A DNA stretch of 64,000 nucleotides from Phorcus lineatus (lineage: Eukaryota; Mollusca; Gastropoda; Trochida; Trochidae). The stretch spans positions 10,729,000-10,792,999 of the forward strand of contig OV121096.1 in NCBI GenBank assembly GCA_921293015.1, read 5' to 3'. The notes beneath the pieces were generated by a model. It saw nothing but the letters and a program-made list of their open reading frames with translations, was not told the origin of the DNA and searched no databases. Positions 2,991-28,330 of this stretch are shown here, piece by piece. The stretch's first letter is position 1. Each line of letters opens with the position of its first letter. A program made the position numbers and the translations under genes.

Positions 2991-3059
2991 AGTAACATAT
3001 CTTTTTTTTAAATCAGTCCACCGTATGTTAGAGGTGAAGCTAACATTATATATTGGGCA

Positions 3060-4908: not shown

Positions 4909-5140
4909 ACACGTGTATGTCTATGACAAGCATAGAAAGGATGAGGGAAAAGATGGAATGAAAGGCATTGTGAGAGATAGACAACAGGTCTAAAATTTGG
5001 TCTCACTTCTACCAGACGACCGATCAAGCTTTTTTTGCCCCCACCAGGTGCATGTAAGCTCCGGCTGGCATAGCTCTAGGGGTCTCTGGACCACTCAAAC
5101 CACCACGACACGGTATTGAGAAATGTGGTGGATGCATGAT
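4909..5140 (-). repeat. Non-LTR retrotransposon 5'-end-like fragment
   Basis: The reverse complement of this stretch matches 55905-56160 over landmarks GTGGTGGTTTGAGT, CAGAGACCCC.AGAGCT, GCCGGAGCTTACATGC, GGTGGG and a CCTGTTGTCT.TC segment. Such sequence resembles 5' untranslated parts of non-LTR retrotransposons of the RTE/Rex3 kind, as I recall them; no reverse transcriptase is present to confirm this. The two copies lie in opposite orientations and are diverged. Confidence 0.4.
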
Positions 5141-6179
5141 TTGTTGTAATTAACTAACCAGAATCGCAAAATTGGACTCGGCCAGTATTACTATGGTCGA
5201 TCGGTTAAGAAACTTTCGATTTCAGTTTGTTTATCTAAGGACGTCGCCATTTAGCGTAAGAGCGAAAGCCAACTCCTGTTCGAGAGGTTCTCTTTGGTTG
5301 GCTGAAATTTAATCGCACACCATCGTGATAAAAGTATTTGATTGGCTGAATCATGGGTTACGGTGCGAAGTTTTTGCTGGGACCCAGAGTAAGATGAGTG
5401 GAGCATCAGTTATACATCTTACCCTGAGACAGGATACAACAACCCCTATAACACTTTGGCCAGAATATCCAGTATTTTAGCTATTAACATAATACTTAAT
5501 AAAATAATTGTTAATCAAAATAGCAGTATATATAAACCAAAGAAAGGTTCTCGTCATTTTGGAAAACATTAGTGTGATGGTTGGTAATAACACTCTTACA
5601 AGTTGAACATTTATTACATTGGCCCTGCAAGCAATATACTGAGGAACAAATTAAGGTCCAATTCTGCAGAGAATATCCGAAAGTAACTCTATACCATATA
5701 AGATATCCTAAAAAGAGAACATCTTGATTATTTTTCTAACGATCTTAATTTATACAAGATTTATCTTGAAATATTATACTCGGTAAATTCTTTTTAATCT
5801 TAACACTGAAAAAAAACCTTGAGTTGAACAATTATGCAAGAGGATATATGATTCAATTTTATGGCTTGTCCGTCTTTCTTTGCGTTTTCTTACCTTTTTA
5901 ACAAGGAGAGCAAACATCCGTTGCTATGAATAGATTAGGGGATTTCCATTATGTCATGAAATAGCCTCTAAACAGTGTTTTTTCAGGTACTACTCTTCCC
6001 TCAATTCAAGTTGTATTTTCTTAGTTAATTCTAAGAATTTTAACAATTATTCTGCTAAGATTTTTTCTTAAATGGACTTATGAGGGAATTTAAGTTATTT
6101 CAAGTTTTTTCTTAAAGTTAAGAATTCTTCAGGAATCCTAAGTATAAAACTAAGAAAATTTGAAGAAGTTTTGTGACTC

Positions 6180-6360
6180 CTAATCTGGTTGGAATTCTGA
6201 TTTAATGATTTGGTGATACAGTGACCCCTAATGAGGGTCATAGGAATCTGGCCCTGTTAAAGTTATTTTCATCTTCTGCTCCAGAAATAGAGGCGTAGAA
6301 AGCTGAAACCTTGTGTACAGACTCCTTAGCTGACAGGAACTTTAATTTGACATGATGATT
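6180..6360 (+). repeat. Single unit of the AAAGCTGAAACCTTGTGTACAG repeat family
   Basis: The unit reads AATGAGGG(TCA), TTTTCATCTTCTGCTCCAGAA, then GAAAGCTGAAACCTTGTG, TACAGACTCCTTAGCTGACAG. It is closer to the units at 3.1-3.4 kb than to the inverted set at 28-31 kb. Confidence 0.55.
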
Positions 6361-7864
6361 TTAACCCCGCTCTCAAACTATTACAGCGTTCAGTCATTAT
6401 TTGGTCTCATTTCTCTTTATGTGCAACCATTGAAACATTACACAGAACTTTACTTACAAAAAACACTCTCTTGCCATCATCTGTCATAAAATAAGTTAAA
6501 CCAGCTCTTTTGGGATCTCTTTGAAGTCCTCAATTAAGCAGTCAAAATTGGCGTTTATGAGAATAATTCAACAATTATTGCTCATGTTATTGCATACATA
6601 TTGAGAGAAGCTTAACAATATCATATGTTACATATTTCAACTGTTACAGTTTGACAATTATCAAACTGAAAGTTAACATTTAGCAAGATGTCTCTCTATG
6701 AAGAGGGAAATGGGTAGTTGCAAAGGTACAACTACCAGTTTATATGTCCTGTGGTATTAGTTTGAAAATTACAATTTATCAGAGCCTTCATTTGTAAATT
6801 ATATCTTCAAATGGTGAGACCATTTCAGAAAATCATTGCAAATGTCACATAACATAATAAGGTTGATGCGTCCGAAAAGTTTTTATATGGCTTATTCGAT
6901 TCATGTGTCTATTTTTTGTTTGGTTTCAGATGGACAAACCAGTTGAAATGACTTGTCTTGTCAGAGGAGATTTTCACGTGTTGATTTTTATTAAAACTGT
7001 AAATGATAGCATAGGTAAATTTCCCTGCCCTGTCAGTCTATTCACCAGTAATCGTTTTTATTTTCTGAGGAGATCGCCAAAAGTGTTCATTATTACTATT
7101 TTTTTAAAAACTTCATGTGAAACTGTTGAATAAGCAATGTTTGAAATAAAAAGCTGTTTTGCTAAGAAACTGTTTTGTCATTATTTCTGTTGCTATTTAA
7201 CACTCATCAACCTTTTATCATCTGTCACACTGTTATGTATCCCCTCAAACATTTGGTTGAAGGTATTGAATTGGGCTTCTTCAGTCTGCCAGAGTGAAGA
7301 AGCCCCAATAAAAAATGTCCCATTGTCATGGACATTTTTAATGGCCCATAATTTCTTAAATAATTGTTTGCTTCTTAAAATATGGCATCAAAATGTTCAT
7401 ATCTGCAAACATTGGTTATGATTAAGAACTATCAATATAAGCTTCATAAAATTCATTTTATCCAAAAAAGAGATGATGTTTTAAGAAAATTAACTTCATG
7501 GACTCTTATTTGGTTCATGATATCTTATCTTATCAATAAATTTGTGATACATGTATTTACATATTGACCTGTCAGGATTGACAAGTTTTAGCTAATTAGA
7601 CCAGAAAGGCCTGATTGATGAGCATGGCATGGCATGGCAGCATGATCCGCATATCTTCTTTTTTTATTTTTGCCAACTTCATCTCATAAGTGGCGACTCT
7701 AGAAATTGTAGATATGTAGATTTGAAAAATGGCCACAAGGGGTACAACCTGAAACCCCTCTTCCATCTTGTACAGAATGAATTTGCTAATTTAACACCTT
7801 TGCCTAACAAAATAAATAGAGGATATTTGACATTTCTCGTCGAATACCATGGATATCTCATCGA

Positions 7865-7933
7865 GTGAAGTAGAAATCTATATTTTCACGAGTGGCGTAG
7901 ACACGAGTGTTACTATATGATTTTCTACTTCAC
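7865..7933. repeat. Foldback (imperfect inverted repeat, ~30 bp arms)
   Basis: GTGAAGTAGAAA at 7865 and its complement TTTCTACTTCAC ending at 7933 form the outer stem; inner CACGAGTG/CACTCGTG-type bases also pair. The loop is about 7 bp. It looks like a minimal foldback MITE; no target duplication was identified. Confidence 0.5.
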
Positions 7934-9807
7934 AGGGTTTATTTTCACCGATAAATGGCATATTTCACCATTCGAAATATAATAAAGTTTGATAGATATA
8001 TTTCATGAAAAAGTTTTAAATTGAGATATTTCATATTATCATCCAAAACTGTGTTCCACAGGAGATATTGCTTGAAGGAGATCAAGGAGATATCATTTCG
8101 GCAGAAGATTTACAACAATAGCCTGCATCAAGTACATGACATTAATTACAATTATTTTGCATCATAAAGTCATGACATGTAAATGCTATGACATCACCGC
8201 TATGGGAGTCTTAGGGTAGTGCAGTATTAAAAAATGTACATTTATAGGGGAAATGAAAAGAAAAAGGATTTTGGATGTTAAATAAAATCTCACCTTGCTG
8301 TCTTTTGATTATTTGTAACTTATATCAACTAATATTAATATATTCAATATCAGGAGACACTTGGTTGAGGTTCTCTTCTTATGGCAGTCTGCTACTCTAC
8401 TTGATTCTTTGCTACAGTATGTGCCTTTAAAATCAGATGGAATAATGAGACTCAATATGGTAAATGATACATCAAGGATATGTGGCTATGTAATCCTGCA
8501 AAAAAGCAAGAGAGTGATCAAGTGTCCATTGTATTGAGACTTTTTTCCCTTATCTAGCAAAAGATTTAAATTAGGCTTTATCAGCTTTGCTTGATAACAA
8601 AATTATTATTTGATGAGTTCATGTAAATCTTTTAGTAGAACAAAGGATTGTTCACAAATTTGGTGGTTAATTATAGTGGTCTGGTTACAACACAATATCC
8701 ATTAACCTTTTTTCGAAGTCGAAATAGCGAGTGCCAACTGTTTACAAGCATGACCTCACGAAAACACAGCTAGCCATATTCAGTATTTAGCCACATCATA
8801 GTCACCCTAGCCTTACAAAATCAAAATCGCAAGACAAAGTATGCACCCATCAGTTTCCGAAACCGCCGCGACAAGGCAACCAGATATAGTATTACAATTT
8901 GTATCTTTCACTTACAACATTGTTGCTTTATGATTTAACTATACGCCGCCCCTAAGCTTCACTGTCAGGTTGCAACTATGTTATACTACGCTGGTAACCT
9001 GCACCAAGTCGGTCAGTTGCGTTTTGGCGCGCAAAACTGCAAAACTTTTGTAAGTTGTCATTGTAAAAAATGCCAAAGATACACGGGGCTGGTCAACTTT
9101 TATCTGCAACATAAATTTCCCCGTGTGCCCCTATGAGAGAAATGTGCCGTAAGCGTTTCCTTGCGACTTTATGAGGTTGTGCAGCTGTGTTTCATTATCA
9201 TTTCTTTGGGGCAAACTGACCCAGGTTCGGACACCACTCGAGGTCGCCCGAACTTCGGACACATTTAAGTGGAAGCTGACGCAATAACATTCCTGCGATA
9301 TGTTCGTTTCAAAATGTTCCTTTTCAGTGTCTTATTTTATTCATTTTTTTTTTATGAACATTTGATTTGTTTATGTTGGTTAATTTTTGTAATCGAACTT
9401 TTGCTTGGAGGTATGCCTACACTAAACGGGTTCAAGTAAAAAAATGGCGAAATATTTCTTTTGACAATGTAAGTGTTGACTCGAGAAGGAAATTTAGGAA
9501 GCGCGAAAATTATTAAACTGTATTCATGAACGAATTAAAAAAACCAAAGAGTAAATTTTTTCTAAATATTGGTAGAAATGATATGAAATTATATTAGTTA
9601 ATACTGAGATCTTGATAAGATATTAAAATGACCTTGGTTCGGATAGTTTTGACCATGGTTCGGACACTTCTTAAATATCCTTTTAATGTTAACTTGTAAT
9701 GTTTTGATTAAACCAAAAAAGGAGTTCAGGAAACATTAATAAACATACGACTAATACGTATGTCAAAATGATTTATTCTGAACCTACGGTTTAGCGCTTA
9801 CGGTGTA

Positions 9808-11041
9808 CAAGGGGTGTCCAAACATTTTCGGCCAGACCATCAAAAGCAAAGAAACATTCAAATTTTTATTACTTATTTTTCGACATTATCACCCATGACC
9901 TCAATTCATTTGCTCCAGCGTTTTTGTAACATCTGCAACCCATCTGAAAATCAGTTCTTATCACGAGACCCCAAAAACTCCTCTACTGCAGCAATGACGT
10001 CATCGTCAGTCTCAAACCTTTGGCCACGGAGATCTGTTTCAGTCGAGGGAAGAGGAAGAAGTCTGAGGGGGCTAAGTCTGGAAAATAGACAAGGTGGGGG
10101 AGAATCCTGAACCCACAATCCTGTGCTGCACTGAATGCAATTTGAACGGTGTGAACGGGAGCATTGTCCTGCAACAGTCAAAGACTTTTGCGCAGTTTAC
10201 CCCTTCGTTTCTTTAATTTTGTTCTCGTAATTGTCGTAGATCATTTGCGTAATAAGTGCCACTGATTGTAGAACCTTTCTTTTAAAAATCAATCATTATA
10301 ACACCCTGAGAGTCCCAGAGAACGGATGCCATGACCTTCCGACTGGAGGAACTTTGAACTTTTTAGGGGTGGGTGATGTGCTGTGTTTCCATTGCATGCT
10401 TGGGCTTTTTGTCTCAGGATCAAAATGATGAACCTAGGTTTCATCTTGAGTAACGACATGAGCGAAAAATGATTCTGGGTCTGCGCGATACTCGTCAAGA
10501 AGTTGCCGACTGACCATGACACGTTTTCGCATTTGGTCCTCAGATAACATTCTTGGGACCCAGCGTGCTGATAGCTTATTCATATGTAAATGTTCGTGTA
10601 TAATTTGTTCAACTGATGTTTTACTGATATGATGACTAAATACTGCATTATTGTGTCAAGAACAATCTCAATGTTTTCACCTGTGGTGACATCAGATGGA
10701 CGACCAGGACGCGGCTCGTCTTTAGTGCTTACTCTTCCCCATTTAAATTAAGCACATTAGTGTGTAATGGTGCTATATGAAGGAGCAGAGTCACCTAATG
10801 TTTCCATGAATTTCCTTTGGAGTGTTTTTTTTTTAAAACTCAGATATTTGATAACAGCCCTACATTCACTTTTCTCCATTTGGGTAAAAGATGTGACGGT
10901 ACCTTTGAATGACAGGCTATTATATCCAATTGAAGAGTATGCATCTCGTGATTTTCATGCCATTTACACGCCAATGAAGGTTCTTCATGCACGCACAGTA
11001 TGGTTGCGTTTCCAGGCCGGAAACTTTTGGGACAACCCTCG
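9808..11041 (-). mobile_element. Mariner transposon (degenerate)
   Basis: The ends are imperfect ~28 bp inverted repeats: CAAGGGGTGTCCAAACATTT on the left and, on the complement of the right end, CGAGGGTTGTCCCAAAAGTT; both then run into CGGCC. TA dinucleotides flank at 9806-9807 and 11042-11043, as expected for mariner. The 1,234 bp length matches the usual 1.3 kb. The transposase on the minus strand is broken (see 9873-10879). Confidence 0.8.
9873..10879 (-). pseudogene. Mariner transposase pseudogene (DD34D family)
   Basis: Reading the minus strand from ATG at 10879, the N-terminal helix-turn-helix region gives segments like PKEIHGN and SAPSYSTITH, followed by DEPRPGRPSD. The catalytic core is recognisable: DET then a stop then VHHFDPETK (first Asp region), WDSQGVIMIDF (linker), and QDNAPVHT with YFPDLAPSDFFLFP (second and third Asp regions). 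The last residues, near LQKRWSK, end at the stop at 9873. The reading frame is interrupted by at least two stops (including a Trp codon changed to stop) and several frameshifts, so no active enzyme is made. About 335 codons, close to the family's ~345. Confidence 0.8.
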
Positions 11042-11524
11042 TATTTGCGTCGAAGGCTTACAATTTGTGACCGTGACGTCATTTTTCTGTAACGACGCAT
11101 GTGGTAGTTTTCAAAAATTTAACATCGGAAAACATGCTCTGTATCTTTGACAAAATAATCTGTGTTGTCGAAAAACCGTAATATTATTGTTTATCGACTA
11201 CTCTCTTCTTGTTTAAGAGATGAATGAAACCCTTTTGATAAATATTATAAGCCAGGGATTCATGCATGCGATCAGATTAGGTGCAACTTTCCGAAGTGAG
11301 GGCAGAAGTGTCCGAACCTCGGGCGAATTGATATATGAAAATAAAACCGTAATTTTCGATTGATTTGGAAATAATTTTGAATTTTGAGATGGAAATTAAA
11401 TATAGATATTCAACTTTGGATACTTTTATTCGCTGAATATGACTTTCTTCAGGTAATTATGAATTATACAGTCTATCAAGTTATTTGAATCATTACACTG
11501 TCCAAACCTTGGTCAGTTTGCCCT

Positions 11525-12179
11525 ACTCTTTTAATGTTTTCATTTTATCCTTCTTAGTGTTTAGATTGACATGTTAATTATTCGTTTCTACAACAACATT
11601 TGGTTGCACAGAATAAAAGCTTGGCAATAGTTGCAATGTTATATCGGTTAATTAAATGATGACACATGCTGTCTAAACGAATATTTAGGAATCGTCTTTC
11701 TCAAACCTGACCTTTATTTTCACGGCATTGTTATTTTAAGTACTTCAAAGTACACCTAGTTACGGCTTTTCAATAACAAGAACCCCCCCCCCCCCCCCCC
11801 CCCAAAAAAAATAAAGATACAGCATATATATTCCCAAAAAGATACAGTTTAAACATTTTCAAGAAACCAAGAGGCCATATTAATTGTTTTTTTGATTATC
11901 TCACCAGAAATGGCATCCCTCGTTTCATACACATGAAGATATCGGCTATGGAAAGCCGTAACCCTAGTTCCTTAGTTATCCCACACAACACCAAGAATAC
12001 CAATAACCTCATACCAAGTTTCATTAATATTCCGAAGATCATATGTGGACTACAAAAGACACGCGACTCTTTTTTTAAAAAAATTATGTTTTAATTACTG
12101 TGAGAAATCGTTGTTAACATGGAAATTTTCCCATCTGTTCATTTGTAATATGCTCTTAGATAGGTAATTTCATGATTTT
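11525..12179. other. Spacer between TIR element and satellite
   Basis: It contains the C run and, toward the right, sequence that gradually comes to resemble satellite monomers. No gene. Confidence 0.5.
11783..11803. repeat. 21 bp poly-C homopolymer
   Basis: An uninterrupted run of 21 C is followed by a short A-rich run. The length should be treated cautiously because homopolymers are error-prone. It lies 0.25 kb after the 9.2-11.5 kb element and about 0.4 kb before the satellite. Confidence 0.85.
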
Positions 12180-13480
12180 ACCTTAGACATCAGACATCAG
12201 CCAGGTTATCTCTTACTTTACCCCGTAAAAGGCAGTACTTCATAATTATTGCCGACATCAGCTAGGAAATCTCTAACTTAAGCCCCCGAAAGGCCAACGT
12301 CTTGATTATGACATATGCTAAGTAATTTCACGATTTTACATTTGAAAGACACCATATTTTCATGAATATTCCCGACCTCAGCTATGTAAACTCGAACTTT
12401 AGCCTCTGAAACACCCAGAATATTCAGGACATCAGCTAGGTTATCTCTAATTTTACCCTGTGAAAGGCCAAGTTTCATAATTCCGATATCAGCTAGGTAA
12501 TCTCTAACTTTAGTCTCTGAAAGGCCAAGTTTAATGAATGTTCCCGACATCAGCTAGCTATAGGTTGTTTCTTATTTTACCCTGTGAAAGGTCAATTTTC
12601 ATGAACAATCCGACAACAGCTAGGTAGTCTCTATAACTTTTCTCTGTGAAAGGTCAAGTTCCATGAATACTCTCAGCAGCAACTGGGTTATCTTTAAATT
12701 TAGCCTCTGAAAGACAAAGTTTTATGTATGTTCCCGACATCAGCTAGGTAATCTCTAACATTTCTCTGTGAATATTGCCGACATTAGCTAGGTATTCTTT
12801 ACCAAGGCCAAGTTAAATGAAAAATCCTACATCAGCTAGGTAATCTATACCTTGAGCCTCCTAAAGGCCCAGTTTCATGAATGTACCCGACATCAGCTAG
12901 GTAATCTCTAATTTTTCACTATGAAAGGTCAAGTTCTATTCATATTACCGACATAAGCTAGGTAATATTTACTTTAAGCCTAAAATGGCAAAGTAAAATG
13001 AATAATCTGACATCAGCTGGGTTATCTCTAACTTTAGCCCCTGAAAGACTAAGTTTAGATGACATCAGCTATTTAATGTTTCACTTTAGGCCCTGAAAGG
13101 TCAAGATTCATGACGAATCCGACATCAGCGGGGTTATCTATAACCTTAGCCCCTGAAAGGCCAAGTTTAATGTATATTCCCGAAATCAGCTAGGTAATCT
13201 TCTACCTTTAGCTTCAGAAAGACCAAGTTAAATAAATACTCCGACATCAGTTCTGTTATCTCTAACTTTAGCCCCTGAAAGGCTCAGTTTCATGTATATT
13301 CCCGACATCAGCTAGGTAATCTTCAACTTTAGCCTCCGAAAGGCCAAGTTTCATGAATACTCCGACATCAGCTAGGTTATCTCTAAATTTTGCTCTTGAA
13401 AGGCCAAGTTTCATGTTTATTCCCGACATCAGGTAGGTAATCTTCAACTTTAGCCTCCGAAAGGCCCAGTTTCATGAATG
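12180..13480. repeat. Satellite, left flank: diverged ~61 bp monomers
   Basis: Monomers follow a consensus built around CCGACATCAGCTAGGTAATC, then TCTAACTTTAGCCCCTGAAA, then GGCCAAGTTTCATGAATATT. Neighbouring monomers differ substantially and show no longer periodicity, as is usual for the edge of a satellite array. A monomer-like piece (CCAAGTTTCATTAATATTCC) is already visible at about 12023. The minus-strand frame at 12278-12550 stays open only because several adjacent monomers are near 60 bp; it is not considered a gene. Confidence 0.9.
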
Positions 13481-16400
13481 TACCCGACATGAGCGAGGTA
13501 ATCTCAAAACTTTTCTTTATGAAAGGTCAAGTTCTATGCATATTACCGATATTAGCTAGGTAATATCTACCTTTGGTCCAGAAAGGCCGAATTAAAGGAA
13601 TAATCTTACATCAGCTGGGTTGTCTCTAACTTTAGCCCCTAAAAGGCCAAGTTTCATGCATGTATATTCCCGACAATGTCTTACTTTAATCCCTGAAAGG
13701 CCCATATAAATTAATAATACGACAATAGCTAGGTATTCTCTAATTTAAGCCCCTGGAAGGCCAAGTTTTATGTATTTTCCCCGAAATCAGCTAGGTAATC
13801 TCTAACTTTTCTCTGTAAAAGCTCATGTTCCATGCATATTCCAGACATTATCTAGGTAATCTCTCACTTTAGCTCTTGAAAGATCAAGTTGTATGCATAT
13901 CACCGACATAAGCTATTTAATTTCTATCTTTAGCGTAAGAAAGGCCCAGTTTCATGAATAATCCGACATCAGCTAGGTAATCTCTCACTTTAGCCCCTGA
14001 AAGGCTAAGTTTAGATGAATATGCCCGACATCAGTTAGGTAATCTCAAACTTTTCTCTATAAAAGGTCAAGTTCCATGCATATTCCCGACATTATCTAGG
14101 CAATCTCTCACTTTAGCTCCTGAAAGATCAAGTTGTATGCATATCACCGACATAAGCTATTTAATTTCTACCTTTAGCGTAAGAAAGACCCAGTTTCATG
14201 AATAATCCGACATCAGCTAGGTAATCTCTCACTTTAGCCCCTGAAAGGCTAAGTTTAATGAATAATGAATCATCCGACATCAACTAGATAATCTCTAAAT
14301 TTAGCCCGTGAAAGTCCAAGTTAATAAGTTATATGTATATTCCCGACATCAGCTAGGTAATAATCTCTTTTCTCTGTGAAAGGTCAAGTTCCATGACTAT
14401 TCCCAAAAGCAGCTTGGTTATGTTTAACTTTAGCCCCTTAAAGACAAAGTTTCACGAATATTCCAGACATAAGCTATTTATCTCTATCTCTAGCCTCCGA
14501 AAGGCAACGTAAGTGGAATAATCCGACATCAGCTAGGTTATCTATAACTTTAGCGTCCGAAAGGCAAGTAAAATGAATGATACGATATGATCCAGGTTAT
14601 CTCTAACTTTAGCCCCTGAAAGGCCAGGTTTAGATGAATATGCCCGACATCAGCTAGGTAATCTCAAAACATTTCTTTGTGAAAGGTCAAGTTCTATGCA
14701 TATTACCGATATTAGCTAGGTAATATCTACCTTTGGTCCAGAAAGGCCGAATTAAAGGAATAATCTTACATCAGCTGGGTTGTCTCTAACTTTAGCCCCT
14801 AAAAGGCCAAGTTTCATGCATGTATATTCCCGACAATGTCTTACTTTAATCCCTGAAAGGCCCATATAAATTAATAATACGACAATAGCTAGGTATTCTC
14901 TAATTTAAGCCCTGGAAGGCCAAGTTTTATGTATTTTCCCCGAAATCAGCTAGGTAATCTCTAACTTTTCTCTGTAAAAGCTCATGTTCCATGCATATTC
15001 CAGACATTATCTAGGTAATCTCTCACTTTAGCTCTTGAAAGATCAAGTTGTATGCATATCACCGACATAAGCTATTTAATTTCTACCTTTAGCGTAAGAA
15101 AGGCCCAGTTTCATGAATAATCCGACATCAGCTAGGTAATCTCTCACTTTAGCCCCTGAAAGGCTAAGTTTAGATGAATATGCCCGACATCAGCTAGGTA
15201 ATCTCTAACTTTTCTCTATAAAAGGTCAAGTTCCATGCATATTCCCGACATCATCTAGGTAATCTCTCACTTTAGCTCTTGAAAGATCAAGTTGTATGCA
15301 TATCACCGACATAAGCTATTTAATTTCTATACCTTTAGCGTAAGAAAGGCCCAGTTTCATGAATAATCCGACATCAGCTAGGTAATCTCTCACTTTAGCC
15401 CCTGAAAGGCTAAGTTTAATGAATAATGAATCATCCGACATCAACTAGATAATCTCTAAATTTAGCCCGTGAAAGTCCAAGTTAATAAGTTATATGTATA
15501 TTCCCGACATCAGCTAGGTAATAATCTCTTTTCTCTGTGAAAGGTCAAGTTCCATGACTATTCCCAAAAGCAGCTTGGTTATGTTTAACTTTAGCCCCTT
15601 AAAGACAAAGTTTCACGAATATTCCAGACATAAGCTATTGATCTCTATCTCTAGCCTCCGAAAGGCAACGTAAGAGGAATAATCCGACATCAGCTAGGTT
15701 ATCTATAACTTTAGCGTCCGAAAGGCAAGTAAAATGAATAATACGACATGATCCAGGTTATCTCTAACTTTAGCCCCTGAAAGGCCAAGTTTAGATGAAT
15801 ATGCCCGACATCAGCTAGGTAATCTCAAAACTTTTCTTTGTGAAAGGTCAAGTTCTATGCATATTACCGATATTAGCTAGGTAATATCTACCTTTGGTCC
15901 AGAAAGGCCGAATTAAAGGAATAATCTTACATCAGCTGGGTTGTCTCTAACTTTAGCCCCTAAAAGGCCAAGTTTCATGCATGTATATTCCCGACAATGT
16001 CTTACTTTAATCCCTGAAAGGCCCATATAAATTAATAATACGACAATAGCTAGGTATTCTCTAATTTAAGCCCCTGGAAGACCAAGTTTTATGTATTTTC
16101 CCCGAAATCAGCTAGGTAATCTCTAACTTTTCTCTGTAAAAGCTCATGTTCCATGCATATTCCAGACATTATCTAGGTAATCTCTCACTTTAGCTCTTGA
16201 AAGATCAAGTTGTATGCATATCACCGACATAAGCTATTTAATTTCTACCTTTAGCGTAAGAAAGGCCCAGTTTCATGAATAATCCGACATCAGCTAGGTA
16301 ATCTCTCACTTTAGCCCCTGAAAGGCTAAGTTTAGATGAATATGCCCGACATCAGCTAGGTAATCTCTAACTTTTCTCTATAAAAGGTCAAGTTCCATGC

Positions 16401-19400
16401 ATATTCCCGACATCATCTAGGTAATCTCTCACTTTAGCTCCTGAAAGATCAAGTTGTATGCATATCACCGACATAAGCTATTTAATTTCTACCTTTAGCG
16501 TAAGAAAGACCCAGTTTCATGAATAATCCGACATCAGCTAGGTAATCTCTCACTATAGCCCCTGAAAGGCTAAGTTTAATGAATAATGAATCATCCGACA
16601 TCAACTAGATAATCTCTAAATTTAGCCCGTGAAAGTCCAAGTTAATAAGTTATATGTATATTCCCGACATCAGCTAGGTAATAATCTCTTTTCTCTGTGA
16701 AAGGTCAAGTTCCATGACTATTCCCAAAAGCAGCTTGGTTATGTTTAACTTTAGCCCCTTAAAGACAAAGTTTCACGAATATTCCAGACATAAGCTATTT
16801 ATCTCTATCTCTAGCCTCCGAAAGGCAACGTAAGAGGAATAATCCGACATCAGCTAGGTTATCTATAACTTTAGAGTCCGAAAGGCAAGTAAAATGAATA
16901 ATACGACATGATCCAGGTTATCTCTAACTTTAGCCCCTGAAAGGCCAAGTTTAGATGAATATGCCCGACATCAGCTAGGTAATCTCAAAACGTTTCTTTG
17001 TGAAAGGTTAAGTTCTTTTCATATTACCGATATTAGCTAGGTAATATCTACCTTTGGTCCAGAAAGGCCGAATTAAAGGAATAATCTTACATCAGCTGGG
17101 TTGTCTCTACCTTTAGCCCCTAAAAGGCCAAGTTTCATGCATGTATATTCCCGACAATGTCTTACTTTAATCCCTGAAAGGCCCATATAAATTAATAATA
17201 CGACAATAGCTAGGTATTCTCTAATTTAAGCCCCTGGAAGGCCAAGTTTTATGTATTTTCCCCGAAATCAGCTAGGTAATCTCAAACTTTTCTCTATAAA
17301 AGGTCAAGTTCCATGCATATTCCCGACATTATCTAGGTAATCTCTCACTTTAGCTCCTGAAAGATCAAGTTGTATGCATATCACCGACATAAGCTATTTA
17401 ATTTCTACCTTTAGCGTAAGAAAGGCCCAGTTTCATGAATAATCCGACATCAGCTAGGTAATCTCTCACTTTAGCCCCTGAAAGGCTAAGTTTAGATGAA
17501 TATGCCCGACATCAGCTAGGTAATCTCTAACTTTTCTCTGTAAAAGCTCATGTTCCATGCATATTCCAGACATTATCTAGGTATTCTCTCACTTTAGCTC
17601 CTGAAAGATCAAGTTGTATGCATATCACCGACATAAGCTATTTAATTTCTACCTTTAGCGTAAGAAAGACCCAGTTTCATGAATAATCCGACATCAGCTA
17701 GGTAATCTCTCACTTTAGCCCCTGAAAGGCTAAGTTTAATGAATAATGAATCATCCGACATCAACTAGATAATCTCTAAATTTAGCCCGTGAAAGTCCAA
17801 GTTAATAAGTTATATGTATATTCCCGACATCAGCTAGGTAATAATCTCTTTTCTCTGTGAAAGGTCAAGTTCCATGACTATTCCCAAAAGCAGCTTGGTT
17901 ATGTTTAACTTTAGCCCCTTAAAGACAAAGTTTCACGAATATTCCAGACATAAGTTATTTATCTCTATCTCTAGCCTCCGAAAGGCAACGTAAGAGGAAT
18001 AATCCGACATCAGCTAGGTTATCTATAACTTTAGCGTCCGAAAGGCAAGTAAAATGAATAATACGACATGATCCAGGTTATCTCTAACTTTAGCCCCTGA
18101 AAGGCCAAGTTTAGATGAATATGCCCGACATCAGCTAGGTAATCTCAAAACTTTTCTTTGTGAAAGGTCAAGTTCTATGCATATTACCGATATTAGCTAG
18201 GTAATATCTACCTTTGGTCCAGAAAGGCCGAATTAAAGGAATAATCTTATATTAGCTGGGTTGTCTCTAACTTTAGCCCCTAAAAGGCCAAGTTTCATGC
18301 ATGTATATTCCCGACAATGTCTTACTTTAATCCCTGAAAGGCCCATATAAATTAATAATACGACAATAGCTAGGTATTCTCTAATTTAAGCCCCTGGAAG
18401 GCCAAGTTTTATGTATTTTCCCCGAAATCAGCTAGGTAATCTCTAACTTTTCTCTGTAAAAGCTCATGTTCCATGCATATTCCAGACATTATCTAGGTAA
18501 TCTCTCACTTTAGCTCTTGAAAGATCAAGTTGTATGCATATCACCGACATAAGCTATTTAATTTCTACCTTTAGCGTAAGAAACGGCCCAGTTTCATGAA
18601 TAATCCGACATCAGCTAGGTAATCTCTCACTTTAGCCCCTGAAAGGCCAAGTTTAGATGAATATGCCCGACATCAGCTAGGTAATCTCTAACTTTTCTCT
18701 ATAAAAGGTCAAGTTCCATGCATATTCCCGACATCATCTAGGTAATCTCTCACTTTAGCTCCTGAAAGATCAAGTTGTATGCATATCACCGACATAAGCT
18801 ATTTAATTTCTACCTTTAGCGTAAGAAAGACCCAGTTTCATGAATAATCCGACATCAGCTAGGTAATCTCTCACTTTAGCCCCTGAAAGGCTAAGTTTAA
18901 TGAATAATGAATCATCCGACATCAACTAGATAATCTCTAAATTTAGCCCGTGAAAGTCCAAGTTAATAAGTTATATGTATATTCCCGACATCAGCTAGGT
19001 AATAATCTCTTTTCTCTGTGAAAGGTCAAGTTCCATGACTATTCCCAAAAGCAGCTTGGTTATGTTTAACTTTAGCCCCTTAAAGACAAAGTTTCACGAA
19101 TATTCCAGACATAAGCTATTTATCTCTATCTCTAGCCTCCGAAAGGCAACGTAAGAGGAATAATCCGACATCAGCTAGGTTATCTATAACTTTAGCGTCC
19201 GAAAGGCAAGTAAAATGAATAATACGACATGATCCAGGTTATCTCTAACTTTAGCCCCTGAAAGGCCAAGTTTAGATGAATATGCCCGACATCAGCTAGG
19301 TAATCTCAAAACGTTTCTTTGTGAAAGGTCAAGTTCTATGCATATTACCGATATTAGCTAGGTAATATCTACCTTTGGTCCAGAAAGGCCGAATTAAAGG

Positions 19401-22400
19401 AATAATCTTACATCAGCTGGGTTGTCTCTACCTTTAGCCCCTAAAAGGCCAAGTTTCATGCATGTATATTCCCGACAATGTCTTACTTTAATCCCTGAAA
19501 GGCCCATATAAATTAATAATACGACAATAGCTAGGTATTCTCTAATTTAAGCCCCTGGAAGGCCAAGTTTTATGTATTTTCCCCGAAATCAGCTAGGTAA
19601 TCTCAAACTTTTCTCTATAAAAGGTCAAGTTCCATGCATATTCCCGACATTATCTAGGTAATCTCTCACTTTAGCTCCTGAAAGATCAAGTTGTATGCAT
19701 ATCACCGACATAAGCTATTTAATTTCTACCTTTAGCGTAAGAAAGACCCAGTTTCATGAATAATCCGACATCAGCTAGGTAATCTCTCACTTTAGCCCCT
19801 GAAAGGCTAAGTTTAGATGAATATGCCCGACATCAGCTAGGTAATCTCTAACTTTTCTCTGTAAAAGCTCATGTTCCATGCATATTCCAGACATTATCTA
19901 GGTATTCTCTCACTTTAGCTCCTGAAAGATCAAGTTGTATGCATATCACCGACATAAGCTATTTAATTTCTACCTTTAGCGTAAGAAAGACCCAGTTTCA
20001 TGAATAATCCGACATCAGCTAGGTAATCTCTCACTTTAGCCCTGAAAGGCTAAGTTTAATGAATAATGAATCATCCGACATCAACTAGATAATCTCTAAA
20101 TTTAGCCCGTGAAAGTCCAAGTTAATAAGTTATATGTATATTCCCGACATCAGCTAGGTAATAATCTCTTTTCTCTGTGAAAGGTCAAGTTCCATGACTA
20201 TTCCCAAAAGCAGCTTGGTTATGTTTAACTTTAGCCCCTTAAAGACAAAGTTTCACGAATATTCCAGACATAAGTTATTTATCTCTATCTCTAGCCTCCG
20301 AAAGGCCAAGTTTAGATGAATATGCCCGACATCAGCTAGGTAATCTCAAAACTTTTCTTTGTGAAAGGTCAAGTTCTATGCATATTACCGATATTAGCTA
20401 GGTAATATCTACCTTTGGTCCAGAAAGGCCGAATTAAAGGAATAATCTTATATTAGCTGGGTTGTCTCTAACTTTAGCCCCTAAAAGGCCAAGTTTCATG
20501 CATGTATATTCCCGACAATGTCTTACTTTAATCCCTGAAAGGCCCATATAAATTAATAATACGACAATAGCTAGGTATTCTCTAATTTAAGCCCCTGGAA
20601 GGCCAAGTTTTATGTATTTTCCCCGAAATCAGCTAGGTAATCTCTAACTTTTCTCTATAAAAGGTCAAGTTCCATGCATATTCCAGACATTATCTAGGTA
20701 ATCTCTCACTTTAGCTCCTGAAAGATCAAGTTGTATGCATATCACCGACATAAGCTATTTAATTTCTACCTTTAGCGTAAGAAAGACCCAGTTTCATGAA
20801 TAATCCGACATCAGCTAGGTAATCTCTCACTTTAGCCCCTGAAAGGCTAAGTTTAGATGAATATGCCCGACATCAGCTAGGTAATCTCTAACTTTTCTCT
20901 GTAAAAGCTCATGTTCCATGCATATTCCAGACATTATCTAGGTATTCTCTCACTTTAGCTCCTGAAAGATCAAGTTGTATGCATATCACCGACATAAGCT
21001 ATTTAATTTCTACCTTTAGCGTAAGAAAGACCCAGTTTCATGAATAATCCGACATCAGCTAGGTAATCTCTCACTTTAGCCCCTGAAAGGCTAAGTTTAA
21101 TGAATAATGAATCATCCGACATCAACTAGATAATCTCTAAATTTAGCCCGTGAAAGTCCAAGTTAATAAGTTATATGTATATTCCCGACATCAGCTAGGT
21201 AATAATCTCTTTTCTCTGTGAAAGGTCAAGTTCCATGACTATTCCCAAAAGCAGCTTGGTTATGTTTAACTTTAGCCCCTTAAAGACAAAGTTTCACGAA
21301 TATTCCAGACATAAGTTATTTATCTCTATCTCTAGCCTCCGAAAGGCAACGTAAGAGGAATAATCCGACATCAGCTAGGTTATCTATAACTTTAGCGACA
21401 TGATCCAGGTTATCTCTAACTTTAGCCCCTGAAAGGCCAAGTTTAGATGAATATGCCCGACATCAGCTAGGTAATCTCAAAACTTTTCTTTGTGAAAGGT
21501 CAAGTTCTATGCATATTACCGATATTAGCTAGGTAATATCTACCTTTGGTCCAGAAAGGCCGAATTAAAGGAATAATCTTATATTAGCTGGGTTGTCTCT
21601 AACTTTAGCCCCTAAAAGGCCAAGTTTCATGCATGTATATTCCCGACAATGTCTTACTTTAATCCCTGAAAGGCCCATATAAATTAATAATACGACAATA
21701 GCTAGGTATTCTCTAATTTAAGCCCCTGGAAGGCCAAGTTTTATGTATTTTCCCCGAAATCAGCTAGGTAATCTCTAACTTTTCTCTGTAAAAGCTCATG
21801 TTCCATGCATATTCCAGACATTATCTAGGTAATCTCTCACTTTAGCTCTTGAAAGATCAAGTTGTATGCATATCACCGACATAAGCTATTTAATTTCTAC
21901 CTTTAGCGTAAGAAACGGCCCAGTTTCATGAATAATCCGACATCAGCTAGGTAATCTCTCACTTTAGCCCCTGAAAGGCTAAGTTTAGATGAATATGCCC
22001 GACATCAGCTAGGTAATCTCTAACTTTTCTCTATAAAAGGTCAAGTTCCATGCATATTCCCGACATCATCTAGGTAATCTCTCACTTTAGCTCCTGAAAG
22101 ATCAAGTTGTATGCATATCACCGACATAAGCTATTTAATTTCTACCTTTAGCGTAAGAAAGACCCAGTTTCATGAATAATCCGACATCAGCTAGGTAATC
22201 TCTCACTTTAGCCCCTGAAAGGCTAAGTTTAATGAATAATGAATCATCCGACATCAACTAGATAATCTCTAAATTTAGCCCGTGAAAGTCCAAGTTAATA
22301 AGTTATATGTATATTCCCGACATCAGCTAGGTAATAATCTCTTTTCTCTGTGAAAGGTCAAGTTCCATGACTATTCCCAAAAGCAGCTTGGTTATGTTTA

Positions 22401-22640
22401 ACTTTAGCCCCTTAAAGACAAAGTTTCACGAATATTCCAGACATAAGCTATTTATCTCTATCTCTAGCCTCCGAAAGGCAACGTAAGAGGAATAATCCGA
22501 CATCAGCTAGGTTATCTATAACTTTAGCGTCCGAAAGGCAAGTAAAATGAATAATACGACATGATCCAGGTTATCTCTAACTTTAGCCCCTGAAAGGCCA
22601 AGTCTAGATGAATATGCCCGACATCAGCTAGGTAATCTCA
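13480..22640. repeat. Higher-order satellite array, ~1,160 bp unit x about 8
   Basis: A diagnostic junction (CCGAAAGGCAACGTAAG) recurs with AAAGGCAACG starting at 14501, 15661, 16821, 17981 and 19142, giving spacings of 1160, 1160, 1160 and 1161 bp. A truncated unit follows at about 20301, then 21342 and 22474. By hand count a unit holds 19 monomers of about 61 bp, and inside each unit a four-monomer block (about 244 bp) is itself duplicated. Units are nearly identical while monomers within a unit are well diverged, the signature of recent higher-order amplification. Deletions shorten the unit at 20301 (about 119 bp lost) and the unit at 21342 (about 28 bp lost). Confidence 0.93.
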
Positions 22641-23270
22641 AACTTTTCTCTCTAAAAGGTCAAGTTCCATGTAAATTCCCGAAATTATCTAGGTAATCTC
22701 TCACTTTAGCTCCTGAAAGATCAAGTTGTATGCATATTACCGACATAAGCTATTTAATTTCTACCTTTAGCCTCAGAAAGGCCAAGCTAAAGGAATAATC
22801 CGACATCATCTATAGGTTATCTCTAACTTTAGCGCCTGGAAGGCCAAGTTTTATGTTTATTCCCGACATCAGCTAGGTAATCTCTAACTTTTCTCTGTGA
22901 AAGGTCAAGTTGTATGCATATTACCGACATTAGCTAGGTAATTCGCTAGCTAGGTAATCTCCCACTTTAGCCTCCGAAAGGCCCAGTTTCATGAATGTAA
23001 CTGACATCAGCTTGGTGCTCTCGAAACTTTTATCTTTGAAAGGTCAAGTTATATGCATGTTACAGACATTAGCTAGGTTATCTCAAACTTTTAGCCTCAG
23101 AAAGGCCAAGTTTCGTGTAAAATTCCGACATCAGCTAGATAACCTCTACGTTTAGCCTCAGAATGTAATCAGATGAGTAATCTCTGACTAAAGTTTCTGT
23201 AAGACCAAGTCTTTTTTTTATATACCCGATATCCTCTAGGTAATTTCTTACTTTACCCTGTGTCCGTCCG
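22640..23270. repeat. Satellite, right flank: decaying monomers
   Basis: The higher-order pattern stops and the monomers diverge, some truncated (around 22940-22960) before the pattern is lost near 23250. After it, CGTCCGTCC and an AAATTTTGTGTGATCTTTGTAG stretch resemble the AAAGCTGAAACCTTGTG repeat family seen elsewhere in the window. Confidence 0.85.
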
Positions 23271-24482
23271 TCCATAAACGCTTTACATTTTCTAGCTCTT
23301 CTTCAGGAATGCTGCATCCCGAAAAATGAAATTTTGTGTGATCTTTGTAGTCTTTTTACCAGAAATCATAAACGCAAGAGTTGTCACACTTTGAGAATAG
23401 CATTTTTGGACGATGGGGTATGTAAATAACAACGTAGCAGGACCTGGTGTACACATCAAAAGGCAAACCCTTTTTAAAAGATATTCAATTTAATTCCACT
23501 GATGATGAGATGTGTGATATAAGAATTTAAACGAGCCCAAGTATATGTCGGATGCAAAATATCAACATAAAACTCTACTGGTCAGCTGTAGAGTAAACGG
23601 CAAGGCTTGCAGATACACCATTGCAATATTTCATAATCAGTGTCAAGAAAAGAACAGTACTGTTTACTATAAAGTAATGTTCTTAAGGTTGTTTTTATAA
23701 TGGCCACAATCCTTAAGAGTAGTATATGGATCTAAATAACCAAAGTTTCACTACTGTGAAAATATAAAAAAGTTTATCTTTTATTTTATCCTTGTGTTTA
23801 TTACCATTGTAAGGGTGTCTCTTTAACAGTTCATGTTTACTTACCTCATTACTGTTAGAAAGTAACCCATTCAAATTCTTCATACAATAGATGAATACCA
23901 AAGTGTTAACTATCAAATATTTGACTTTGTTGATAAATCAGGTTTGTGTTTGAGATTGAAATACAACTACTTACTCATTCATCTGAGTTGGTTAGAAAAT
24001 TCTTTTTACCATAATAATTTGAGGATGGATAACTGCAATGCAACTTAATCAATAGTTCCTGTTTCTCTTCTTTCTGGCCATTGTTGATAGATATCAGCAG
24101 GAAGCTTTGTGTATTCCAAATGATCTGTCTAACTATGACGTAATGTTATATATTAATACTTATATATCCTAACATGTATTTGCAATGTGTAATTAAAAAA
24201 TACAATTGACAAAAAGGAAATCTTATGTGTTTTATAAAAAGTTTGTTTTAACATACCCTCATAAATGTATCATGGAGGTTTCAAGTTTTGTCAATGGTAA
24301 TATCATTAATAACCTCATGACTACTTCTAAACTTTGTTATCAATGAATCTTTATTCAATACTGGCCAGTGGCCACAACCAAAAATACAAAAAAGCAATTC
24401 ATGTAAATAATGATGTGATTATTAACAATAATGATGTCTTGTTTTCCAATGATTCTCATATTTTGTTTTAACACTCTTCGCG
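23271..24482. other. Unannotated AT-rich DNA
   Basis: No coding frame of interest, no inverted repeats seen. The first 150 bp look like a decayed AAAGCTGAAACCTTGTG-family unit. Confidence 0.45.
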
Positions 24483-24494
24483 CTTGCAGCTTGA

Positions 24495-24811
24495 GGTGAG
24501 GTGAGGTGAGTTGGTGTTTAACGCCGCCTTCAAGATTATTTCACTAATATCGCAGCCGCTAGTATTTCTGCAGGGAGAAAGCCCGCAACACTATTGTGGC
24601 TATGCATTGCGGTGAAACCTGCGAGCATCGGCTGGAACTAGCGAACCATGGATGGTACTGCGCTGAATTTCAGTGTAGCATTGCACCCAAACCTGACTGC
24701 ATGTAGAACAGTTCTCTACTGCAGACAAAGTTGCCGAGCCCTTGCGGGATTTGAACCACGGACCTCCTGATCCGAAGCCAAACGCGCTAACCACTGCGCT
24801 ATCCCGCCCCC
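24495..24811 (-). mobile_element. tRNA-derived SINE, full length (copy A)
   Basis: On the minus strand the element starts with a tRNA-like head containing an A box (TAGCGCAGTGGTTAGCGCG) and a B box (GGTTCAAATCC). A conserved body follows (TTGTCTGCAGTAGAGAACTG, then CAGGTTTGGGTGCAATGCTA), and a tail of GGCGGCGTTAAACACCAACT with CTCAC repeats. A 12 bp target duplication CTTGCAGCTTGA flanks it at 24483-24494 and 24812-24823. Three related copies lie at 48331, 49049 and 58344. It was mobilised by a LINE machinery not present here. Confidence 0.9.
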
Positions 24812-24823
24812 CTTGCAGCTTGA

Positions 24824-25397
24824 AGTGTTTGATCAGTTTGATAGACTTCTGCATTATTCCATAGAGGGTCTGAAATGTACAAACAACAAAAGTTCAATAC
24901 AAGTCAATTCAAAAATTGAATCTGAAATATCTGAAAGGAAGATGAATAAAATAGGATTTCAGGGAATAGCTTATTTTACACTAAGAAGTAGCCCCATTGG
25001 CACCAAATCTTACCCCTTATAAAATCCATTGGCTAAGGAGTGCAAATTTAAGATTTCAAAATGAAAAAAGCAGTCAGAGTCTAACATATCCCCCACAATC
25101 TGGCAAAAGTGTGAAATATATTGAACAATATTTGAGAAGTTTTATTCTTTAATTAAAAAACCAGAAAGGCACCATTAAACATGATGATCTTTTGATATAC
25201 AAAGTTTCAACAAACTAAGCCTTATGGCTTTTAACTTCTGTTTTGGGCAAAAAATTAAGTTGGAAATAGCGAAAAGTAAATTAAGACTAAGTTCAAACCC
25301 TGAAAGCAACCACTAAACATGTAGATTAATGAGCTAGGCCTTGTGTTTTTTTACTTCTGGTCAAGAAATGCACTGACTGATGATCGGATGGAGGTTA
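24824..25397. other. Unannotated AT-rich DNA
   Basis: Short frames only; phrases such as ACCAGAAAGGCACCATTAAA with CATG and ACAAAGTTTCAACAAACTAA suggest more decayed repeat units. Confidence 0.4.
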
Positions 25398-25830
25398 TTT
25401 CTATTTACACCCTTTGGGATGTTACTTCCTTTGGTTTTTTTTGAAGGTTATATGCCATAACCACCATGTGCGCAGGTTAGTCGTTTATGAGTGAGTAGAT
25501 GAGTTGGGGTTTTACTTGTTTCTTTAACAACATTTCAGTTACTAAACATACCTGGTTCGGTTATGAGATGTTCAATGTGAACAAACAAATGGACTTGTAA
25601 AATTTTAAAATTTCAACAAGTTAGAAATATAAGATTTAAAACGAGCGAATGCGGGACCTCTCCGTTGTCAAGCAACGCCTCTACCATTTGAGTTAACGAG
25701 GGTCCATGTCAGCTGAGGTACTTTTTGTTGTGTCATGTCTACACTGATATATATTTATAGGTAATAGGTTTTGTATAATTCTGTTGTAAAGGATCTAGTT
25801 TTTAGCCTTAAAAACTAAATCAGGCGTGTC
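25398..25830 (-). mobile_element. tRNA-headed repeat, second family (copy 1)
   Basis: The reverse complement matches 49819-50292 throughout. It holds a tRNA-like core with an A-box-like CTCAAATGGTAGAGGCG and a degenerate B box, then a SINE-like stretch (AACTGAAATGTTGTTAAAG then AACTCATCTACTCACTC). Unlike a simple SINE, homology continues on both sides of this core, from ACACGCCTG on one side to CAAAGGGTGTAAATAGAAAT on the other. So the mobile unit is about 450 bp with an internal tRNA-like sequence. Confidence 0.65.
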
Positions 25831-27389
25831 AGGCAAAGTAAACAATTTTAATATCAACTATAGGTGTCACGATATAAACAATGTATCATGATACATGTAT
25901 TGTCAGATTAAAAGCAATTGTGCACACCAATATTTCGTAAGTCAATGACAAATACACAGATATTGCATATCTACCATATAGTTATTTGGCAAATATATTC
26001 AGTTTATAAAATCCATGTTACAAGATCGGAAGTACCTTATGCTACATTATTAATACAAAACATCTGCATGAACTACATACTGTAAGTATTCTTATTTTTG
26101 CCTACATCCAGAAAAGCTATTCTGCAAACCACTATGGTTAGTCAACAACAATGCTGTTTTCTCGATTCAGTTCCAAATTGTCTAAAGAAACAATATTTCA
26201 CCCTTCGTTCTTAATTCACAAAATAAGGTAAATTCAAACTCTGCACACATTACTTGTTAAGACAATTTCAAAGTGAATATTTCATCCTTTTTGTGCACAG
26301 CTGACATTAGATTTCTATATCTCTAAGCGGACTTCAGTTGTCTGAATTTATTTAATTTCATTATTGATTACATGGTAATTGTAGAGATCAATACATACCC
26401 CATTAAAAATATAGAGAGTTAAAATGAGTGCCAATTTCCTTATGTGTGTTAAAATAGCAAATTTGAGGGTAAAAATACGTGGAAGAGTGCCTTTACTGGC
26501 TTTAGTTATAAAATTCTTGAAATCAGATTCATCATCATACCTCTGAACATTTTTATGGTGGGATGTTTAAATTTTGATAAGAATGTTTACCTTAATTTGG
26601 GACAACCTTATTGTTATTGTTCTCTTAAAAGGTAAAATCAGAGCCAACATAATTTATCCCCCACAGGTTGAGTTGTGACATCTCTGCTGCATCCTGTAAT
26701 GACAAGAATGATATGAAAAATATGATTAAATGAATACCCGAGGCTAATTCCCAGTTATTTGGAATTTGTGCTAAGTTAAAGTAGTGCTGTAGCTGTGCTC
26801 AATGTTCTTAAGAATAAATGAAAGAGATCAGTTTTCTAAAAATTTCAATGAAGCAGTTTATAACAGAGTTATAGCCTAAGTGAAGAGTCGTTTAAATGTT
26901 GTTGACCTCTAAAACTCGAAGACGCTTAGCTAGTGGCTACGATCTGGCATGTTGCTTTGAGGGAAAATGACATGCAAAAAGGCCCTGTACTTACCTAATT
27001 TAACATTACAAATATAAGCTAAGGGTATGGATAAAATATCCACAAATTATAAAAGATTTATGAAAAGACTAATCAAGAATGCCTTTTAATACCATAGGAA
27101 AGCTTTTCAAGCTTGAAGCACAGATAAATGGCTTCACTTTTCATTCTTGTTTTATTTTACAAAGTGTGCACTCTTATTTACCTAGTTGTCCATTATAAAT
27201 CAACCAAAATGTTATCCTCAGTACCATTTTTCACCTGGATTTGTTACAATCATGTACTGATAACATACTTGTACAAAGAATTTCAGCTTTCCTGGCCAGT
27301 AGAATGTAGAATGTTATGTTTTTAAGTAAAGTGGGAAAAGATAAATAATGCAAAGCAAGAAGGTCACAAAATATATCAATAAAACCCAA
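25831..27389. other. Unannotated AT-rich DNA
   Basis: No gene or repeat could be supported. Confidence 0.45.
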
Positions 27390-27480
27390 AAAGCTCAGGA
27401 ATCTGTACACAAAATTTAAGCTTTCAAGGCCTTTGCCTTCCAGAGAAGGACATTAACATAGGCCCTCATTTTTGGGCCAT
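27390..27480 (-). repeat. Unit of the AAAGCTGAAACCTTGTGTACAG family, inverted
   Basis: CTGTACACAAAATTTAAGCT followed by TTCAAGGCCTTTGCCTTC is the complement of the family core. The foldback at 27481 begins immediately after it. Confidence 0.5.
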
Positions 27481-27634
27481 AGAGATTATTACCAGAGTAT
27501 GTTTTGATATCGTAAGTATCACTATATAAACAATAAAAAGTGTATTAGGCGAGGTTTACCGAGCCTAATACATAGTTTTTATTGTTTATATAGTGATATT
27601 TACGATATCAAAACATACGAAGGTAATAATCTCT
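27481..27634. repeat. Long near-perfect foldback (~74 bp arms)
   Basis: The left arm 27481-27554 and right arm 27561-27634 are complementary almost throughout (AGAGATTATTACC at the outer end; TATTAGGCGAGG / CCGAGCCTAATA at the centre), leaving a loop of about six bases. The arms also contain TATATAAACAATAAAAA. The symmetry ends sharply on both sides. It is either a foldback MITE or a recent inverted duplication. Confidence 0.8.
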
Positions 27635-27924
27635 TTATCATATAATGTCATTTTGAAATAAACCTCCTTTTTCGGTTAATTTTGTGTCCCCTTTACAAAC
27701 GAAAAGGGCGTATGAATACACCCACGTTTGTATTGCCAAGGAAACGTTTTCGGAATCGCTCTTCTCGGTACGGAGCTAGCGAAAGTAGTGCGACCTAGTT
27801 ACCCTCATTTGCATTGTTATCAGGGATCTGATAATGTGATTACAAGATGGGTTTATTGCACCGATAACACTGCCCATTATATGATAAACAACATTACCAA
27901 CTCTAATTATTTCTAATCCATTTT

Positions 27925-28330
27925 TGCCATTGATCCTGTACACAAAAGCCTTCTGAGCCTTTTTTTTCTGCAGAAGAAGATGGATATAGGTTTTGAAGGC
28001 ATGACCCCAGCCGCTCATTAGGGGCCACAGGGTCAGGACATTATCCACTGGCAAAGGCACCTTGGAGAAGTAAATGTAAACGGGTCCCAAAGGCTCTCTT
28101 AAGGGGCAAAAGGACCAACAAATCTATTATTCTAAATACCCATATTGCCATGGTACATGTCACAATATATCAGTTCTCTAGAGCCAATCATTCTCGAGAA
28201 AAATCCAAATATTTTCAAAGTTTAACAACAGAGGGATGGATGCCGTACACAATGCCATGGCATAAGCCAATTGCAGCTTTTAGGCGTGGCTTAAGAGCTC
28301 AAAAATTCCACTTTATCATCTGCCTAGCTT
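27925..28330 (-). repeat. Diverged inverted units of the AAAGCTGAAACCTTGTG family
   Basis: The complement of CTGTACACAAAAGCC, then GGCATGACCCCAGCCGCTCA with TTAGGGGCCACAGGGTC, matches the CACAGGGTC / CCCTAATGAGGG block of the 3.1-3.7 kb units. The stretch at about 28225-28280 (GGGATGGATGCCGTACACAA) looks like the family's outer part. Confidence 0.5.

Follow-up and report, generated by a model that had tools for sequence, protein, structure and literature searches.

The 64-kb window of the Phorcus lineatus genome analysed here (C37:10729000-10792999 on contig C37, window base 1 being C37:10729000) contains a higher-order satellite array in the middle of a dispersed element of about 39.2 kb, which is bounded by terminal inverted repeats (TIRs). 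Very probably, a giant TIR transposon, which seems to be non-coding and targets (TA)n tracts, carries this tandem array in its interior, and exchange between the repeats has remodelled it. The ends and flanks of the element, the hybrid monomers, the differences in unit number among the copies and the end units common to them are observed directly. Taken as a series, the copies look like snapshots of the birth and growth of an array, rather than like a centromere.

Architecture of the higher-order array

The higher-order core was located at window positions 13485-22618 and consists of eight tandem units, each built from 19 monomers of about 61 bp in a fixed order. The original prediction of about eight units of ~1,160 bp with about 19 monomers at 13480-22640 was correct within a few bases at the left end and about 20 at the right. 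A monomer profile search (E up to 0.01) detected 183 monomers between 12193 and 23262, all on the forward strand, and none elsewhere in the 64-kb window. Clustering of these monomers resulted in eight repetitions, of which two are incomplete, of the order C D E F G H I J K H I J L M N O P Q R. Tandem Repeats Finder, which had been suggested as a check, also found the tandem array and described it as a 61-bp repeat (12804-22942) and, with a better score, as a 244-bp repeat (12804-23163). The features of the array are as follows:

12193..13484, + strand: left monomeric edge, 21 diverged ~61-bp monomers without higher-order period or lag signal, collinear in other copies
13485..22618, + strand: higher-order core, eight 19-monomer units (CDEFG HIJK HIJL MNOPQR), two of them shortened
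13485..14644, + strand: unit 1, 1160 bp, with edge-unit variants common to the first units of other copies
19287..20326, + strand: unit 6, 1040 bp, short of two monomers (about 120 bp), with parts of P, Q and R gone and P and R joined in register as a hybrid monomer
20327..21457, + strand: unit 7, 1131 bp, with about 29 bp lost out of register between Q and R (part of Q gone); mosaic of two unit types
21458..22618, + strand: unit 8, 1161 bp, with a C-G part that corresponds to that of the last units in two other copies
22619..23262, + strand: right monomeric edge, opening with an H-I-J-like block that is 86-90% identical to the HIJ blocks of the units
23262..23273, + strand: (GTCC)3, directly after the array

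The eight units start at 13485, 14645, 15806, 16966, 18126, 19287, 20327 and 21458 and are 1160, 1161, 1160, 1160, 1161, 1040, 1131 and 1161 bp long, the last one ending at 22618. Autocorrelation of positions 12001-24000 gave peaks at 3481, 2321 and 1160/1161; the proposed 1,160-bp lag therefore stands, but the spacing is not exact throughout, since two of the eight units are shortened (1040 and 1131 bp). As had been proposed, the monomers within a unit are divergent and the units nearly identical: the mean identity is 69% among the monomers of one unit and 98.6% among the eight units in pairwise comparison (without gaps, range 97.2-99.8%). The diverged monomeric satellite described on both sides was also recovered (12193-13484 and 22619-23262). 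The array thus shows diverged monomers in fixed order, nearly identical tandem units and diverged monomeric flanks of the same family, which define a higher-order satellite. The best lag identity of the core is 0.51 (lag 1160), and it did not exceed 0.29 in base shuffles or 0.33 in monomer-order shuffles (n = 50 each). Shuffling of the monomer order destroys the lag signal, which is therefore carried by this order and not merely by the 61-bp repeat.

The original description has to be corrected with respect to the unit, in which eight of the 19 monomers (HIJK/HIJL) are an internal 244-bp duplication, and with respect to the array, which lies inside a mobile element, as could not be recognized from one window by itself. 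The first and second blocks of this duplication are 92.6-95.9% identical over the eight units. Monomer K corresponds to L in its first part and to R in its last part, and at an identity of at least 98% it is confined to 19-monomer units. Within the window, the right edge is the only place where H follows R, which makes it the most likely source of the extra HIJ block, judging from monomer order. A second hybrid monomer is found in unit 6, where the first part of P is joined to the last part of R within a shared 7-bp GAAAGGC. The first 24 bases of junction monomer C in units 2-8 recur at the start of the right edge's first monomer; unit 1 differs from them at two. Because of this pattern, the founding exchange most likely fell in these first 24 bases of monomer C; the pattern is suggestive only, as the same 24 bases are also near the general monomer consensus.

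An ancient 244-bp tetramer order beneath the 19-monomer unit was considered and rejected: the lag-4 signal of unit 3 (9/10,000 permutations) was gone once the HIJL copy was omitted. In the left edge, no tetramer order was found at lags 1-6. Units 4, 6 and 7 show a reciprocal swap, only partial in unit 7, of a short patch between the first and the second HIJ block (window 13782-14274 and the corresponding positions of these three units).

The host element and the arrays in its copies

The genome assembly (957.8 Mb, 74 contigs) was searched for copies of the element. Its left end lies about 6.2 kb to the left of window base 1 (C37:10722782) and its right end at window position 33024, so that the following parts fall into the window:

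1..33024, + strand: element part inside the window; the terminal inverted repeats delimit its homology with other copies, and the flanks are unrelated
32738..32987, + strand: subterminal GTAGCGCTA repeats, four direct (32738, 32776, 32952, 32979) and one inverted (32811)
32978..33024, + strand: right terminal inverted repeat, 47 bp, 87% identical to the left arm (C37:10722761-10722807), ending in (TA)n

Five copies with both ends were found on three contigs (C37, C25 and C11). In the alignment, the copies on C37, C25 (41.96 Mb) and C11 all cease to be homologous at one position, window 33024, within a (TA)n tract; on the left side, homology between C37 and C25 (41.96 Mb) stops at C37:10722745. 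The TACAAARTACCCTATAGCGC pattern, searched with up to 2 mismatches, was found at 12 places in 958 Mb, 11 of them exact and one with one mismatch. Ten of these places correspond to the two ends, left (G) and right (A), of the five elements (34.7-40.6 kb), and the other two are isolated left-end matches on C2, one with the mismatch. As a control, the pattern read backwards gave 8 places at the same setting, mismatch levels not being shown for these 8. The right-end 17-mer occurs exactly 12 times, ten of these being two per copy, and its control gave 0 matches. The left ends, read in all five copies, are the same and each lies beside a different (TA)n site. Pairwise comparison of the flanks (at most 800 bases per flank, and 257 in the case of one left flank) revealed no similarity in 10/10 left pairs and in 6/6 right pairs, the latter from four copies. 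Inverted ends on a dispersed unit and copies at unrelated sites are what characterizes a TIR DNA transposon.

Further right-end matches on C2 (66.608 Mb) and C19 (1.337 Mb), where the homology to the right end (90-94%) extends over 270 bp and about 1.4 kb, and the isolated left-end matches reveal diverged relatives; the two right-end loci are possible leads to an autonomous partner. In the copy at C25:41.96 Mb, both flanks hold a similar stretch beside (TA)n (AAGTTGTTACA..., seen by eye), perhaps a part of the target. Some internal differences among the copies were observed as well. About 2.2 kb (window ~1-2192) are present in the window and in the copy at C25:41.96 Mb and absent from the two C25 copies of greater divergence; a nested transposon is suggested here by short inverted ends, seen by eye, near 310 and 2190. 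At window 27725, about 433 bp are present in the C25:41.96 Mb and C11 copies and not in the window. The assumption that the copies diverged by 2.3-2.8% end at window 29531 proved wrong, as extra sequence follows and the same right end is reached later. Both of these copies share a nested insertion of several kb after this position, containing open reading frames (ORFs), which we take to resemble a DIRS-type retrotransposon.

A genome search with the unit, in which the best candidates only were scored and the window's own units were not listed, so that its results are lower bounds, gave matches of up to 99-100% on C25 (41.96 Mb) and C11 (53.08 Mb). Weaker matches were found at two further C25 places (~69-90%) and on C29 (~70-77%). 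The right flank matched C25:41.96 Mb and C11 at 100%, C25 twice more at 95-96%, a part on C29 at 81% and a 62-bp scrap on C15. The strong unit matches form four arrays besides that of the window, and all five arrays lie inside copies of one TIR-bounded element of ~35-40 kb.

These arrays span about 4-11 kb each and contain 8, 5, 4, 2 and 3 units, some of the last being partial. In the window, all eight units are 19-mers, two of them with losses. In terms of the window's monomer names, the array at C25:41.96 Mb consists of units of 15, 15, 19, 19 and 19 monomers and that on C11 of 15, 19, 15 and 19. The array at C25:33.83 Mb is made of two 15-mers of the order C D E' F' G HIJL MNOPQR, in which E and F are diverged, and that at C25:42.93 Mb has 15-mers broken by right-edge-like blocks, plus one short unit. 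The C29 relatives comprise 30 and 14 diverged monomers without units; no end motif was found in the stretches of them examined, and they are not shown to be complete elements.

Across the copies, the edges are collinear and the end units match, and the interior units vary. Substitution differences, calculated with gaps left out, amount to 0.1-0.5% in the flanks and 0-0.13% in the edges for the three closest copies, those in the window, at C25:41.96 Mb and on C11, and to 2.3-2.8% and 1.5-3.7%, respectively, between this group and that of the two other C25 copies, which carry 15-monomer units. In the array edge monomers, the window and each of its two closest copies are identical at 748/749 and 362/362. 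As the edges differ as little as the flanks, they behave as unique DNA does, and the remodelling affects the core. Shared variants indicate orthology of the units (W, window; X, C25:41.96 Mb; Y, C11) as W1~X1~Y1, W2~X3, W3~X4 and W8~X5~Y4. W1 matches X1 in its first part and X2 in its last, a pattern expected from units fusing by exchange. In the C-G part, 13 alignment columns separate all units of one copy group from all units of the other, so that concerted change occurs over longer time. The unit differences within the window array (mean ~1.4%) exceed the flank differences of 0.1-0.5% among the three closest copies; much of the unit variety therefore predates their dispersal. The proposal that the array was homogenised from its centre is consequently borne out in part: the edges are fixed and collinear while the core changes, but much of the unit variety is older than the dispersal of the copies.

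Proposed origin of the array and alternative explanations

Transposition is evident from the shared ends and the unrelated flanks of the copies; it has placed the element at the five sites, presumably by a cut-and-paste mechanism. Within each copy, misaligned monomers would exchange, rearranging the middle of the array and leaving the end monomers unchanged. In-register crossovers would create hybrid monomers, and through them monomer blocks or entire units would be gained and lost. One such exchange would have joined L to R, resulting in hybrid K, and converted the 15-monomer unit into the 19-monomer unit. The 19-mer would then have replaced the 15-mer in the window copy (8/8 units, two since shortened), and transposition would have spread copies at different array stages. 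The direction of change would accordingly run from a monomeric array via 15-mers to 19-mers, with unequal exchange as the molecular process that we infer. The element is probably non-autonomous, and its array may be a passenger without a needed function; nothing found here gave an indication of an array function.

Several observations weigh against this explanation. When 23 of the 46 listed element ORFs of at least 70 aa outside the array were scanned against Pfam, none was above the cut-off and two gave weak matches below it. There being no transposase or other coding domain among the scanned ORFs, mobility is argued from structure alone. The right ends were read in four of the five copies, and the fifth (C25:33.81 Mb) was placed by pattern only; insertion into (TA)n would mask a target duplication. 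The tree of the units has weak support at several nodes, and the monomeric stage as the first one is deduced from partial homology, because the C29 relatives are without an end motif. Furthermore, the reciprocal HIJ swap in units 4, 6 and 7 is not the product of a single unequal crossover, and rolling-circle amplification or template switching could be the source of the same unit copies. In a separate comparison of the element ORFs of at least 60 aa with one diverged copy, 61 matched, and no clear gene was recognized among the best 25 of these 61.

The original prediction had likened the array to centromeric satellites. If it were a centromeric or pericentromeric satellite like primate alpha satellite, the window would hold a small outlier block. 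The true higher-order organisation, the hybrid monomers and the diverged edges agree with this, as do the ~1,010-bp tandem arrays, found on at least three contigs, that contain distantly related 61-bp sequence, and the fact that the unit search yields lower bounds only. However, the strong unit matches among the candidates scored lie in short arrays inside copies of one TIR element at unrelated sites. CENP-B-box-like matches are not above chance, with 2 one-mismatch matches in the window (3.8 expected) and none in the array, and a receptor exon-like ORF and a transposase lie about 30 kb away in the window. A centromeric satellite is hence extremely unlikely. The multiplication or swapping of units or copies by the assembler deserves just as little credence: the analysis is based on the assembly and the reciprocal swap in units 4, 6 and 7 is odd, but the copies differ in private insertions, unit numbers, unit orders and flanks.

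It also seems very unlikely that a large segmental duplication instead of a transposon spread a chromosomal block together with the array. Long blocks with 99.3-99.9% identity are present on three contigs, as such a duplication would leave them, but the same inverted ends delimit the copies, which lie in different (TA)n tracts and have unrelated flanks. Helitrons have a TC 5' end and a CTRR 3' end with a hairpin, are asymmetric and lack TIRs. The outermost ends found here are instead mutually inverted, with subterminal repeats, and abut (TA)n without CTRR or TC ends (read by eye). A Helitron/Helentron-type element with central tandem repeats, spread by rolling-circle replication, is therefore improbable, although a (GTCC)3 microsatellite adjoins the array and, according to the accessible part of PMC8268682, oyster satellites lie in such elements.

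Neighbouring features and comparison with known systems

Beyond the element, the window contains an exon-like ORF with a nicotinic receptor ligand-binding domain (52693-53109, + strand). Its best PDB matches are soluble acetylcholine receptors with 98 bits, compared to ~55 for the neuronal receptor subunits listed; the top entries are presumably from Aplysia and the others from vertebrates, a ranking that would be in keeping with a molluscan host. Two ORFs with the transposase domains DDE_3 and HTH_Tnp_Tc3_2 are located at 54267-55315 on the reverse strand and are assumed to be Tc1-like. Neither RNA families at gathering score nor tRNAs were detected in the window.

A tandem satellite of ~1,010 bp (super-period ~4,044 bp) was observed at C17:48.86-48.88 Mb, C5:53.37-53.39 Mb and C11:15.75 Mb. 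Its unit comprises several 61-bp monomers, which are ~70% like those of the window, plus other sequence, and a piece of this satellite gave weak matches on nine contigs. The monomer patterns had 0 matches each in viral_contigs and genome_contigs, and the monomer strings had 0 matches in full-text papers.

The origin and growth of higher-order repeats are mostly deduced from huge arrays that are already complete. In the present case, five copies between the same element flanks show what look like successive stages (15-mer, mixed and 19-mer), with a hybrid monomer marking the step. Because the flanks of the element serve as a built-in clock, the rates of unit gain, loss and replacement can be measured, and a DNA transposon has evidently carried a higher-order satellite from chromosome to chromosome. 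More speculatively, giant TIR transposons might be nurseries of higher-order satellites: the arrays would acquire their higher-order structure within the element, be carried ready-made to other chromosomes and perhaps seed long related arrays of the same genome, e.g., those with ~1,010-bp units, so that the turnover of the satellite library and the birth of higher-order repeats would be driven by transposition. Among the literature matches listed for higher-order repeats in molluscs or transposons, with most subscription papers outside reach, no report of a higher-order repeat inside a TIR transposon was found.

The higher-order repeats of primate alpha satellite have diverged monomers in fixed order, nearly identical units, hybrid monomers at junctions and older monomeric edges. 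The array in the window shares the fixed-order diverged monomers, near-identical units, hybrid monomers and monomeric edges, but its monomers are 61 bp instead of 171 bp long, it has eight units instead of thousands and it is transposon-borne; no sequence relation is claimed. Within molluscs, higher-order units are mentioned in the discussion of an Antarctic bivalve paper and a trough-shell satellite is described as being without higher-order structure, as far as the available parts of these sources go. In the accessible parts of two papers on Crassostrea gigas (PMC8268682, PMC7348941), short satellite arrays are likewise spread genome-wide by mobile elements. The term 'higher-order' occurs 0 times in both texts, and the oyster arrays lie in Helitrons, whereas TIR ends, a (TA)n target and higher-order units are found here. 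Judging from the accessible part of PMC4079207, the nearest TIR analogue is Tetris/TIR-220 of Drosophila virilis, which is also a TIR element without a transposase found and with internal tandem repeats that vary in number; unequal crossover is suggested there as the cause of this variation, building longer arrays. The repeats of Tetris are ~220 bp long, lie in the TIRs and are homogeneous (~94%), and 'higher-order' occurs 0 times in that text; the element described here, in contrast, carries a ~61-bp array in its middle, organised in units of 15 and 19 monomers.

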